A DNA stretch of 64,000 nt from the NCBI RefSeq assembly GCF_023630175.1, contig NZ_JALLIN010000003.1:124001-188000 (forward strand). Direction: 5' to 3'. The position numbers and the translations under genes are program-made. How positions within the stretch are numbered: position 1 is the stretch's first letter; every line of letters starts with the position of its first letter. The notes under the pieces were generated by a model. That model did not search any database. It was not told the origin of the DNA and worked only from the letters and a program-made list of their open reading frames with translations. This document shows positions 24,619-57,759 of this stretch, one piece after another. Origin of the DNA: Streptomyces cellostaticus (GTDB taxonomy: Bacteria > Actinomycetota > Actinomycetes > Streptomycetales > Streptomycetaceae).

Positions 24619-25590
24619 TCACGCCACCTTGCGGTGCGCGTACTCCGCGATCTCCACCATCGGCGGCCGCTCCTCGGTGTCCACCGGGTGGGTGCGCGGC
24701 TCGAACCCGTCCTCGCCCCGCTCGAACTGGGTGAGCGAGGGCCGTACGAGGTGGCCGCGGGCCAGCCGGAGCTGGGCGGTGCGGTAGATCGCCGCCGCCA
24801 TCCGGCCGAGCGCCTGCCCGTCCTGGTGCCGGTGCCTGCGCACCCCGACGTCCACCTGGGCCAGCGCGTCCAGGCCCACCAGGTGCAGCGCGTCCACCAG
24901 CATGCCCAGCTCCACGCCGTAGCCCACCGGGAACGGAAGCTGCTCCAGCAGCGCGCGGCGGGCCGCGTACTCCCCGCCCAGCGGCTGCACGAAGCCGGCG
25001 AGCTGCGGCCAGTGCATGTTCAGCAGCGGGCGGGCCATCAGCTCGGTGACCCGGCCGCCCTGCCCGGCGGCGGTCGTGCCGGGGGCGGGCCCGGCGGGCA
25101 CGGTCAGCGGACGGTCGTACATGGCCTTGACCAGGTCGACGTCCGGATCGGTGAGCAGTGGGCCGACGATGCCCAGGACGAAGTCGGAGGAGAACTCCCT
25201 CAGGTCGGCGTCGACGAAGCAGACGATGTCCCCGCTCGTCGCCAGCAGCGAGCGCCACAGCACCTCGCCCTTGCCGGGGACGGCCGGTATGCGCGGCAGG
25301 ACGCTGTCGCGGTGCACCACCCGGGCGCCGGCCGCGGCGGCGACCTCCGCGGTGCGGTCGGTGGAGCCGGAGTCGACGACGACGACCTCGTCGACCAGGG
25401 GGGCCTGCCGCACGAGGTCGCGACGGATGACGGCGACGATGTCGCCGACCGTCTCCTCCTCGTTGAGCGCGGGCAGGACGACGGAGACGGACTGCCCGGT
25501 GCGCTGCTTGGCGGCCAGGACGCCGTGCAGCGGGCGGTCGGCCACGGACCAGGAGCGGGTGGCCAGCCAGCGCTCGACTTCTTCCAGCAC
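24619..25590 (-). CDS. gpgS: Glucosyl-3-phosphoglycerate synthase (GT2-type)
   Basis: A 323-residue GT-A glycosyltransferase with VSVVLPALNEEETVGDIV near residue 35, the DXD-type metal motif FVDADLREF (about 126-134), and the GpgS features GGEYAARR, FPVGYGVELGMLVD and VDVGVRRHRHQD. It transfers glucose from a nucleotide-sugar to 3-phosphoglycerate, the first step to glucosylglycerate and, in mycobacteria, methylglucose lipopolysaccharides. Being next to otsA and otsB it fits a compatible-solute cluster. No gpgP homologue was seen. The GTG at 25590 is the natural start. Confidence 0.88.
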   Translation of the reverse strand: MLEEVERWLATRSWSVADRPLHGVLAAKQRTGQSVSVVLPALNEEETVGDIVAVIRRDLVRQAPLVDEVVVVDSGSTDRTAEVAAAAGARVVHRDSVLPRIPAVPGKGEVLWRSLLATSGDIVCFVDADLREFSSDFVLGIVGPLLTDPDVDLVKAMYDRPLTVPAGPAPGTTAAGQGGRVTELMARPLLNMHWPQLAGFVQPLGGEYAARRALLEQLPFPVGYGVELGMLVDALHLVGLDALAQVDVGVRRHRHQDGQALGRMAAAIYRTAQLRLARGHLVRPSLTQFERGEDGFEPRTHPVDTEERPPMVEIAEYAHRKVA

Positions 25591-25752
25591 GGTCTGCGGC
25601 TCCTCACTGTCGTGATCACACCTGTTGCGGGGGGTGATGCATCTCGCGGTTCGGACGACTATCTCAACTGTCCCGGCCGTCGGTTACAGTCTTGAACAAC
25701 GCCGGTGACCATCGCATGTCGTGGTCCGACCGGCGTCCACAACCGAATACCG

Positions 25753-25890
25753 CTCATCCAGAGGGGCAGAGGGACACGGCCCGATGAAGCCCCGGCAACC
25801 CCCCTGAGCCGCACTCGTTTCGCGCGAGGCTCCCGGCCAGGGAAGGTGCCAAATCCGTCTCACGGCGAGATGCGTCGTGAGGAAGATGAG
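25753..25890 (+). promoter_or_regulatory. SAM riboswitch (SAM-I/SAM-IV clan) upstream of thrC
   Basis: All conserved core pieces are present in order: CUCAUCCAGAGGGGCAGAGGG (25753 onward, the P1/P2 strand), GGCCCGAUGAAGCCCCGGCA (25778 onward), GGUGCCAAAUCC (25845-25856), and GGAAGAUGAG (25881-25890). P1 forms from CUCAUC (25753-25758) and GAUGAG (25885-25890). The gap to the thrC ATG is 19 nt, and the GGAGAAAG just past P1 is the only ribosome-binding-like site, so translational control is plausible. The subtype (SAM-I versus SAM-IV) needs covariance-model scoring. Confidence 0.88.
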
Positions 25891-25909
25891 GAGAAAGGGC
25901 CTCGCCTCC

Positions 25910-27193
25910 ATGGCTGTGCAGACAGTTGCAAGCACCAGCAATCCCGCCGTCGACCTCGGTCCCGCCGCTGCCCTGAGCTGTCGCGAATGCGGCCACCGGG
26001 TACCCCTCGGACCGGTCTTCGCGTGCGAGGAGTGTTTCGGCCCGCTGGAGATCGCCTACGACTTCTCCGCCTACGACAGCGAGGAACTGCGCCGGCGCAT
26101 CGAGGCGGGCCCCGCGAACATCTGGCGCTACGCGCCCCTGCTGCCCGTCCCCTCCGACGTGGCCGGGAAGCCGAACCTCAACCCCGGCTGGACCGAGCTC
26201 GTCAAGGCCGACAACCTGGCCCGCGAGCTGGGCGTCACCGGCGGGCTGTACGTGAAGGACGACTCCGGCAACCCGACGCACTCCTTCAAGGACCGCGTCG
26301 TCGCCCAGGCCCTGGAGGCCGCGCGCGCCTTCGGCTTCACCACCCTGTCCTGCTCCTCCACCGGCAACCTCGCCGGCGCCGTCGGCGCCGCCGCCGCCCG
26401 GGCCGGCTTCCGTTCCTGCGTGTTCATCCCGCACGACCTGGAGCAGGGCAAGGTCGTCATGGCCGCGGTGTACGGCGGCGAACTCGTCGGCATCGAGGGC
26501 AACTACGACGACGTGAACCGTTTCTGCTCCGAGCTGATCGGCGATCCCGCCGGTGAGGGCTGGGGCTTCGTCAACGTCAACCTGCGGCCGTACTACGCCG
26601 AGGGCTCCAAGACGCTGGCGTACGAGATCTGCGAGCAGCTCGGCTGGCGGCTGCCGGACCAGATCGTGGTCCCGATCGCCTCCGGCTCCCAGCTCACCAA
26701 GATCGACAAGGGTCTGCAGGAGCTGATCGGGCTCGGCCTGGTCGAGGACAGGCCGTACAAGATCTTCGGCGCCCAGGCCGCGGGCTGCTCGCCGGTGTCG
26801 ACCGCGTACAAGGCGGGCCACGACGTCGTGCGGCCGCAGAAGCCCGACACCATCGCCAAGTCCCTCGCCATCGGCAACCCGGCCGACGGGCCGTACGTCC
26901 TGGACATCGCCCGCCGCACCGGCGGAGCGGTGGAGGACGTGACGGACGAGGAGGTCGTGGACGCCATCAAGCTGCTGGCCCGGACCGAGGGCATCTTCGC
27001 GGAGACGGCGGGCGGGGTGACCGTCGGCGTCACCCGCAAGCTGCTCAAGGAGGGTGTGCTGGATCCGGCGAAGACCACCGTCGTCCTCAACACCGGCGAC
27101 GGCCTCAAGACCCTCGACGCGGTGGCCGGCACCGGCCTCACCGCCACCATCCGCCCGAACCTGGACTCCTTCCGAGAGGCTGGCCTCGCATGA
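25910..27193 (+). CDS. thrC: Threonine synthase
   Basis: A 427-residue fold-type II PLP enzyme. The PLP lysine is Lys127 in GNPTHSFKDRVV; the phosphate loop is SSTGNLAGAVGAAAA, and substrate-binding segments follow. The N-terminus has a zinc-ribbon-like CRECGH...CEECFGPLE segment, common to the actinobacterial long form. It converts O-phosphohomoserine to threonine. Start ATG 25910 is chosen because the upstream in-frame codons lie inside the riboswitch P1 stem. It overlaps the next gene by 4 bp and is under the SAM riboswitch, which is unusual for threonine synthesis. Confidence 0.93.
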   Translation: MAVQTVASTSNPAVDLGPAAALSCRECGHRVPLGPVFACEECFGPLEIAYDFSAYDSEELRRRIEAGPANIWRYAPLLPVPSDVAGKPNLNPGWTELVKADNLARELGVTGGLYVKDDSGNPTHSFKDRVVAQALEAARAFGFTTLSCSSTGNLAGAVGAAAARAGFRSCVFIPHDLEQGKVVMAAVYGGELVGIEGNYDDVNRFCSELIGDPAGEGWGFVNVNLRPYYAEGSKTLAYEICEQLGWRLPDQIVVPIASGSQLTKIDKGLQELIGLGLVEDRPYKIFGAQAAGCSPVSTAYKAGHDVVRPQKPDTIAKSLAIGNPADGPYVLDIARRTGGAVEDVTDEEVVDAIKLLARTEGIFAETAGGVTVGVTRKLLKEGVLDPAKTTVVLNTGDGLKTLDAVAGTGLTATIRPNLDSFREAGLA

Positions 27194-27465
27194 GCGTGAC
27201 CGTTCGCATCCCCACCATCCTGCGCACCTACACCGGCGGGCAGGCCGAGGTCGCCGCCGAGGGCGCGAACCTCGCCGAGGTCATCGAGAACCTGGAGAAG
27301 AACCACACCGGGATCGCCGCGCGGGTGCTGGACGACCAGGGCAGGCTGCGCCGCTTCGTCAACGTGTACGTCAACGACGACGACGTCCGTTTCGAGCAGG
27401 GGCTGCAGACGGCGACCCCGGACGGCGCCGGTGTCTCCATCATTCCGGCCGTCGCCGGCGGCTGA
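27190..27465 (+). CDS. MoaD/ThiS-family sulfur-carrier protein (CysO-like)
   Basis: A 91-residue ubiquitin-like protein (VTVRIPTILRTYTGGQAEV, later VSIIPAVAGG) ending in the Gly-Gly tail needed for thiocarboxylate formation. It is similar to CysO/MoaD2-type carriers that deliver sulfide for cysteine or thio-metabolite synthesis. The ATG overlaps the thrC stop as ATGA, so the two proteins are translationally coupled and share the SAM riboswitch. No MEC protease or cysM gene is adjacent. Carrier function is well supported; which pathway it serves is inference. Confidence 0.87.
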   Translation: MSVTVRIPTILRTYTGGQAEVAAEGANLAEVIENLEKNHTGIAARVLDDQGRLRRFVNVYVNDDDVRFEQGLQTATPDGAGVSIIPAVAGG

Positions 27466-27488
27466 CAGAATGACCGATCATTACCTTT

Positions 27489-27504
27489 GGTAACGCCGGT
27501 TACC
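27489..27504. promoter_or_regulatory. Short inverted repeat after the sulfur-carrier gene
   Basis: GGTAAC (27489-27494) and GTTACC (27499-27504) with a GCCG spacer, preceded by a further TTACC half-site. It lies 24 bp past the stop codon and just before the terminator. It could be a protein-binding site or part of a 3' structure; nothing more can be said. Confidence 0.3.
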
Positions 27505-27519
27505 GATTGTTCATTGAAT

Positions 27520-27550
27520 GGCCCCCTCCGCGAGAGAAGCGGAGGGGGCC
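27520..27550 (+). terminator. Terminator of the thrC operon
   Basis: Perfect 12-bp arms GGCCCCCTCCGC (27520-27531) and GCGGAGGGGGCC (27539-27550), loop GAGAGAA. A strong rho-independent-type hairpin. Confidence 0.85.
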
Positions 27551-27908
27551 AATCTATGTGATTGAGCACGGTAGAGTTGGGGAACCCGCTCCCGGGCCGT
27601 GGGACGGGGGCCTTGGATTCACCGCGGCGCACCCGGCGAGAAGTAGCCAAACTGTGGGTGTTTTATGCGGCTTTTGCGCATTTCATGGGGCCCGACTTGC
27701 CCTGAATTCGGACGAATTTACGCTACATTCCGGACCGTTGACGTCCATATTTCTCGTCCGATTGACCTGTTGCAGAGGGCAGTTGGGCAGATACATTCAG
27801 CGGCGGTCGACGCGTTCCGGCGCACGCCCCCGACCAATGGGGGGTGAGGTCTGACCCGGGTCCGCGAAGTGTGGATCTGTGCAAGGGCCAGTAATAGGGG
27901 AGTTAGGC
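27551..27908. other. Long untranslated leader and promoter region of the cold-shock gene
   Basis: No gene was seen here. The stretch from about 27655 to 27800 is clearly AT-richer than its surroundings, with possible TTGCCC/TACGCT and TTGACG/TTGACC promoter hexamers, none convincing. A long 5' leader is common for cspA-type genes, where it acts as a temperature-responsive RNA structure. Confidence 0.5.
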
Positions 27909-57076: not shown

Positions 57077-57231
57077 CGGGAAGGTGTTGTTCCTTGGTGG
57101 TCAGGCCCTCGATCGGGATCGCTAGTCCCGGCCGGGGGCCGTTATTTTTGCCGGTTCACCAAATGCGTCGTGCTTGCTGCGCCGAGCGTAGAGCGATCAA
57201 CCGGGCGCCACGCCAGCCGTGTTGGCGATGT

Positions 57232-57759
57232 TCACCCTGGCGAGTGAGCGTGCGCCGTCGTGGGCGGGAGGGGTGGGGCTTGGTCGGGTTCTTTCCCACC
57301 CGTGGTCCTTGGACAAAGAGCGCCACTCGGACCGGAGCACGGGTTCCCGGGTCGCGGTGGCAGGGTGACCTCCGCCCACACGGTCTTGCGGGGCGCCGGT
57401 CCCGGCGTGACGCCCCAGCGGTCGGCCAGCGCGTCGACCAGCAGTAACCCGCGCCCGGACGTGCTCTCCGGGTCCCCGTCCCCGACGTGGGGGAGCCGGT
57501 CGCCGCGGGTGTCCGTCACCTCGATCCGCAGGACGTCCGCGACGACGTAGAGCGTGAGCCGGAAGTCCCGGCCCGTCACCCGCCCGTGCGTGGCCGCGTT
57601 CGCCGCCAGCTCGGCCACGATCAGCACCGCCGGATCCAACGGCGCCCCCCAGGAGCCGAGTTGCTCCGAGGCGAGCAGCCGGGCCAGACGGGCACCGCGC
57701 GGTGTGGGGGAGAGTCGCACGCCGAAGTTCGGGATGCGGGTGGAGATTTGCTGGTTCAC
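57232..57759 (-). CDS. ATP-binding anti-sigma-factor-like protein (HATPase_c_2, RsbW type)
   Basis: A 175-residue protein with the N-box AELAANAATHGR (about 50-61) and the G1-box DTRGDRLP with GRGLLLVDALADRWGV (about 85-120), the GHKL fold of RsbW/SpoIIAB-like proteins. These phosphorylate an anti-sigma antagonist or bind a sigma factor. A Pro-rich tail of about 35 residues follows the domain. It is divergent from the Scr1-type XRE gene with which such ATPases are commonly paired in Streptomyces. No partner sigma factor is nearby. Confidence 0.87.
   Translation of the reverse strand: MNQQISTRIPNFGVRLSPTPRGARLARLLASEQLGSWGAPLDPAVLIVAELAANAATHGRVTGRDFRLTLYVVADVLRIEVTDTRGDRLPHVGDGDPESTSGRGLLLVDALADRWGVTPGPAPRKTVWAEVTLPPRPGNPCSGPSGALCPRTTGGKEPDQAPPLPPTTAHAHSPG

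Follow-up and report, generated by a model that had tools for sequence, protein, structure and literature searches.

The window, a 64,000-nucleotide stretch of the Streptomyces cellostaticus genome, very probably carries a metM-metO unit in which homocysteine is made with sulfur from the carrier MetO and which is controlled by SAM at the level of translation. The first-pass annotation had regarded the unit as undescribed. As far as the excerpts of PMC12172450 and PMC8079986 go, both of which precede it, metM-metO with its SAM riboswitch has been described before, and its annotation is misleading.

We propose that the C-terminal glycine of MetO would be converted to a thiocarboxylate and that MetM, by homology, would swap the phosphate of O-phospho-L-homoserine for the MetO sulfur, giving homocysteine and then methionine and SAM. 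Hasebe et al. 2024 reportedly found that the C-terminal glycine of MetO is turned into a thiocarboxylate in the Streptomyces MetM-MetO system. Judging from its aptamer match, the leader RNA probably binds SAM, which would stabilise the P1 stem. With the 3' strand of P1 abutting the metM ribosome-binding site, less metM would be translated at high SAM, and translation of the overlapping metO would fall along with it in the arrangement found in the window. Such a switch-off would keep methionine synthesis from draining O-phosphohomoserine from threonine. SAM-riboswitch control is to be expected, because MetM likely makes homocysteine, a methionine precursor. The earlier suggestion that SAM sensing is tied to sulfur delivery and to homoserine flow between threonine and methionine is supported.

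Table 1. Features of the metM-metO locus, in window coordinates
Feature	Position	Strand	Basis or remark
SAM-I (S-box) riboswitch aptamer	25751-25892	+	RF00162, full model
P1 stem, 5' strand CUCAUC	25753-25758	+	cmscan alignment; six standard pairs with 25885-25890
P1 stem, 3' strand GAUGAG, abutting the metM ribosome-binding site	25885-25890	+	cmscan alignment; near the start codon in related leaders too
Probable Shine-Dalgarno sequence AGAAAGG	25892-25898	+	11 bases 5' of the ATG; 7-base match to the 16S 3'-end complement
20-base stretch matching, base for base, the ArgR-bound ARG box of S. coelicolor SCO4293	25904-25923	+	spans the metM start codon; identity to Table 1 of PMC5839063
metM, predicted homocysteine synthase, threonine-synthase-like PLP enzyme, 427 aa	25910 (ATG)-27193	+	
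metO, CysO/MoaD-like sulfur carrier, 91 aa, C-terminal Gly-Gly	27190-27465	+	ThiS-family match
Terminator-like site 3' of metO	27487-27506	+	sole site in scan of 25580-27700; 0.8 expected in shuffles
12-bp perfect inverted repeat, 7-base loop, 3' of metO	27520-27550	+	read from the sequence; without a flag in the terminator scan

The SAM riboswitch proposed upstream of the thrC-like gene was borne out by covariance-model search. RF00162 matched the whole aptamer, covering model positions 1-108 of 108, and its 80.0 bits (E 3.3e-17 for the window) exceed the gathering score of 44.4; the P1 stem described with it was likewise recovered. A permissive scan of 25600-26000 returned RF00162 together with a single snoRNA match below threshold (16.5 bits vs 45); an overlapping match from the clan of RF00162, lower in score, is omitted from its table. 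The match in the window was the one RF00162 match found in the whole draft genome (7.14 Mb, 141 contigs, 98.14% complete).

Conservation of the riboswitch was assessed in 196 genomes of the class, 140 of which yielded a total of 144 RF00162 matches, 3 of these matches being under the gathering score. MetM relatives, scoring at least 391 bits (the next hit scored 236 bits), were present in 135 of the 196 genomes, and all 135 MetM genes are preceded by RF00162 on their own contig and strand. The gap from RF00162 to the first aligned MetM residue had a median of 36 bases and reached 894 at most across these loci. Conversely, 135 of the 144 matches (135 of the 141 above cut-off) sit upstream of MetM genes; the nine found elsewhere include the 3 sub-cut-off ones. 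By eye, RF00162 lies 6-7 bases before a GNAT acetyltransferase-like frame in two loci (L222 and L223, genomes G132 and G048), that of L223 having just 106 residues. It also lies 216 and 6 bases before an ABC transporter ATPase-like frame in L225 and L226 (G056 and G021), genomes without MetM. Elsewhere in the window, positions 57077-57339 (minus strand) gave a strong match to another RNA, the scr4677 Streptomyces sRNA family (RF02673, 141.8 bits).

The leader anatomy suggests, as our best inference, translational OFF control of metM by P1. Among the best 80 of at least 574 MetM loci, GGTGCCA, GATGAGGA and the start codon occurred in that order in all 80. A total of 194 loci gave 83 distinct leaders that could be parsed and 2 that could not. 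In the parsed leaders, 7-20 bases separate the end of the P1 3' strand from the start codon, although the 7-base value comes from a mis-assigned leader (L193) and the start assigned to L119 is also doubtful. Shine-Dalgarno matching used a sequence that we take to be the complement of the 16S 3' end. By this measure the best match overlaps P1 in 45 of the 83 leaders, with no overlap in 38. In S. cellostaticus, an AGGAG at 25889-25893 overlaps P1, and AGAAAGG, the longest 16S-end match of the window, begins one base past it. By eye, many leaders show a GAGG/CCUC-like inverted repeat lying after P1 and before the start codon.

Computed folds were mixed. The unconstrained minimum-energy fold lacked P1, which had a pair probability of about 0.2 without ligand. 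We compared folds in which P1 was forced with folds in which it was disfavoured through an energy penalty. Opening AGAAAGG cost 2.72 kcal/mol with P1 forced vs 0.42 when it was penalised, a difference in favour of occlusion; for the wider stretch 25891-25914 the costs were 8.87 vs 11.92 kcal/mol, a difference that does not favour it. The translational mechanism therefore rests mainly on the position and conservation of P1.

Many SAM-I switches of other phyla act on transcription. It is unlikely, however, that MetM is a homocysteine synthase whose riboswitch works mainly in that way, through Rho or an unrecognised terminator and not by hiding the ribosome site. The mixed accessibility values would accommodate such a switch, but no terminator-like site was found between the aptamer and metM in the scan of 25580-27700, and since P1 of the 83 parsed leaders ends no more than 20 bases from the start codon, a separate terminator would have little space. 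Downstream of metO, the inverted repeat at 27520-27550, which has no T run, may be a terminator.

The ATGA overlap of the metM and metO ORFs, initially read as translational coupling, is present in the window but proved to be a minority arrangement, found in 18 of the best 80 of at least 574 loci. In the other 62 of those 80, 20-275 bases separate the metM stop from the place aligned with carrier residue 1.

The description of the second gene as a CysO/MoaD-like carrier ending in Gly-Gly was upheld. The ORF scored 61 bits against PF02597 (ThiS family), and its product has VAGG at the C-terminus; the best matches among solved structures are 3dwg chain C (E 4.8e-29) and 4n6e chain B. For the survey of named loci, the best 80 of at least 574 confirmed loci were kept, and a carrier lies downstream of MetM in all 80. 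Their carriers end in GG (70), GGC (9) or GGA (1). Because the C-termini vary, some MetO proteins would have to be trimmed before they can be thiocarboxylated, provided that Gly-Gly is the active end. MetO ending in Gly-Gly-Cys was also seen in 9 of the loci L128-L157 (L142-L145, L147, L148, L152, L153 and L155). In the class, 84 of the 135 MetM loci were examined, comprising the 30 most similar (30/30 with a carrier) and 54 picked chiefly one per genus (37/54). A carrier thus adjoined MetM in 67 of 84, and none adjoined it in the other 17, for which 675-792 bases downstream were examined.

These 17 loci could be taken to mean that the carrier serves other sulfur-transfer pathways and that the enzyme uses free sulfide. 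We consider this very unlikely, as the carrier adjoins MetM in the remaining 67, a CysO-like carrier is encoded elsewhere in all 17 genomes that lack an adjoining metO, and PMC12172450, in the part available, equates metO of S. albulus with the Microcystis carrier gene beside thrC.

The CysO-like carriers of these 17 genomes are 46-60% identical to MetO, and in each genome a gene 69-78% identical to S. cellostaticus CysM lies directly 3' of the carrier gene. One genome, G133, has an extra CysO-like carrier without CysM. As all 17 pair a CysO-like carrier with cysM, CysO may serve both amino acids. In the lineages without an adjoining metO, CysO would then also feed MetM, so that one thiocarboxylated carrier supplied both cysteine and homocysteine, with SAM shutting the homocysteine branch alone via the class-wide riboswitch, whose P1 abuts or overlaps the metM ribosome-binding site; we judge the chances for and against this to be evenly balanced. 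Sharing of CysO between cysteine and homocysteine was not found in the literature searched, a scope outside which Hasebe et al. 2024 falls. S. cellostaticus itself has 4 ThiS-family and 12 PALP matches in its genome, together with its own cysO-cysM pair, the CysO of which is 57% identical to the window carrier. The frame of this CysO (L014, 1438-1860, minus strand) runs 20 residues beyond Gly-Gly, and a frame upstream of cysO-cysM shows, by eye, a JAMM-like motif as in Mec.

The enzyme had been named thrC threonine synthase. That label is most likely wrong for the window gene, which from its residues and genomic context is most likely MetM, a homocysteine synthase; the canonical ThrC sits in a hom-thrC-thrB operon elsewhere. 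The ORF at 25910-27193 scored 271 bits against TIGR00260 thrC (cut-off 167) and 229 bits against PF00291, and the solved structures that match it best are those of threonine synthases. The separate operon encodes homoserine dehydrogenase hom (559 bits), ThrC (324 bits against TIGR00260) and ThrB (217 bits); threonine therefore does not need metM. Since both proteins pass TIGR00260 (271 vs 324 bits), this model does not separate MetM from ThrC. The two share their family, the PLP lysine in an SFKD motif, which the window protein retains, and O-phosphohomoserine as substrate. They differ in being only about 35% identical and in changes at Thr88, Asn157, Arg160 and the Gly187-Gly190 stretch.

These positions were compared in an alignment of 164 MetM rows (the best 80 of at least 574 loci plus 84 of the 135 class genomes, the window's own included) and 7 ThrC rows (4 from genomes and 3 solved chains). 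In the numbering of the Thermus enzyme (1uim), Thr88, Asn157 and Arg160 are replaced by Leu, Arg and Tyr, respectively, in every one of the 164 MetM rows, and all 7 ThrC rows keep their own residue at each place. The window protein thus lacks the ThrC residues at all three. From structural work, we take Thr88 and Arg160 to have roles in threonine formation and phosphate binding. The sequences L231-L235, which were excluded from the ThrC rows, form a third threonine-synthase-like group that is 34-38% identical to MetM. They have GNAG, and FKA instead of FKD; Ala stands where ThrC has Thr88, and the Arg of position 160 is retained. The best 80 of at least 574 MetM loci encode proteins 85-96% identical to the window protein; 79 are titled Streptomyces and 1 'Actinobacteria bacterium OV320', and none is titled S. 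albulus.

With threonine covered by hom-thrC-thrB, the usual entry to methionine was not found among the recognised genes of the draft genome. No MetX was recognised (best match 27 bits), and a profile search for HTS/MetA gave no match. PF01053 had 9 matches in the genome, 4 of them over cut-off and 3 of those strong; of the 2 strong proteins scanned, one passes a model for cystathionine gamma-synthase and the other a model for cystathionine gamma-lyase. A second homocysteine route, via the cystathionine gamma-synthase-like protein and an unrecognised acyltransferase, could still exist.

Across the class, MetX scored above 300 bits in 56 of 61 genomes without MetM vs 61 of 135 with it, and within the genus MetM was present in 19/19 and MetX in 6/19. 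This threshold was used with the curated cut-off of 500 bits passed by no genome and by none of 14 controls, C. glutamicum among them; the next listed score under it was 168.6 bits, and partial matches in G180 and G151 were scored as absent. Counting again from the per-genome table yielded the same set of 117 MetX genomes. As the genomes are related, no significance is claimed for these counts. The presence of MetX alongside MetM in 61 of 135 genomes counts against the metM-metO reading.

In the excerpts of PMC12172450, threonine synthase and deaminase activities are reported for the Microcystis protein, which in the cell apparently falls short of full MetM function. This relative, 51.6% identical to its Streptomyces counterpart, weighs against the homocysteine-synthase reading. 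That the window gene is a second threonine synthase, with the SAM riboswitch balancing threonine against methionine, is nevertheless extremely improbable and was rejected: although the gene passes the TIGR00260 thrC cut-off, has threonine synthases as its nearest solved relatives and has a Microcystis relative active as a threonine synthase in vitro, a canonical ThrC of 35% identity lies elsewhere with hom and thrB, Thr88, Asn157 and Arg160 are altered throughout the MetM rows, turning threonine synthesis off at high SAM has no clear logic, and the complementarity with MetX fits methionine instead.

Identification of the gene as MetM corrects a thrC annotation, in which a curated model names as threonine synthase a gene whose product is most likely homocysteine, and the correction matters wherever the metabolism of antibiotic producers is modelled. 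The class-wide link of SAM-I to MetM and the lineages in which CysO seems to replace MetO are modest, testable additions.

The closest known system is MetM-MetO of Streptomyces albulus. The available part of PMC12172450, citing Hasebe et al. 2024, presents MetM as a homocysteine synthase new in Streptomyces that converts O-phosphohomoserine to homocysteine, and places a SAM riboswitch upstream of S. albulus metM, the Microcystis gene having none. The threonine-synthase-like enzyme, the metO carrier gene and the upstream riboswitch are shared with the window; no difference has been established, the two being likened by description and not by sequence. In S. lividans, the excerpts of PMC8079986 (2021) pair RF00162 with a two-gene transcript, SLIV_16930-SLIV_16925, which differs in being annotated as 'Threonine biosynthesis', and report 21 of 22 cis elements as transcribed. 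RF00162 with two genes is the common feature, and the ARG box of SCO4293 is identical to that of the window; we infer that SLIV_16930-SLIV_16925 and SCO4293-SCO4294 of S. coelicolor are the same unit as that in the window. SCO4294 is presumably the carrier gene. In the portion of PMC2267785 available, SCO4293 and SCO4294 are grouped with the sulfate assimilation genes, with distances of 0.15 and 0.20, respectively; as these are under the stated significance level of about 0.21, the two genes were chosen by profile similarity. Differential transcription was not observed for the ArgR-bound box at SCO4293, according to the part of PMC5839063 seen. The ARG box across the metM start is a candidate link between arginine and methionine synthesis.

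The CysO-CysM-Mec system of M. tuberculosis also comprises a PLP enzyme and a sulfur carrier, and 3dwg chain C provides the likeness to the window carrier. There, the PLP enzyme works with the sulfur carrier, but CysM makes cysteine, and S. cellostaticus has its own cysO-cysM besides metM-metO. The methionine route of Wolinella succinogenes shares the use of a protein thiocarboxylate for homocysteine and, unlike MetM, is said to employ O-acetylhomoserine and another PLP enzyme.
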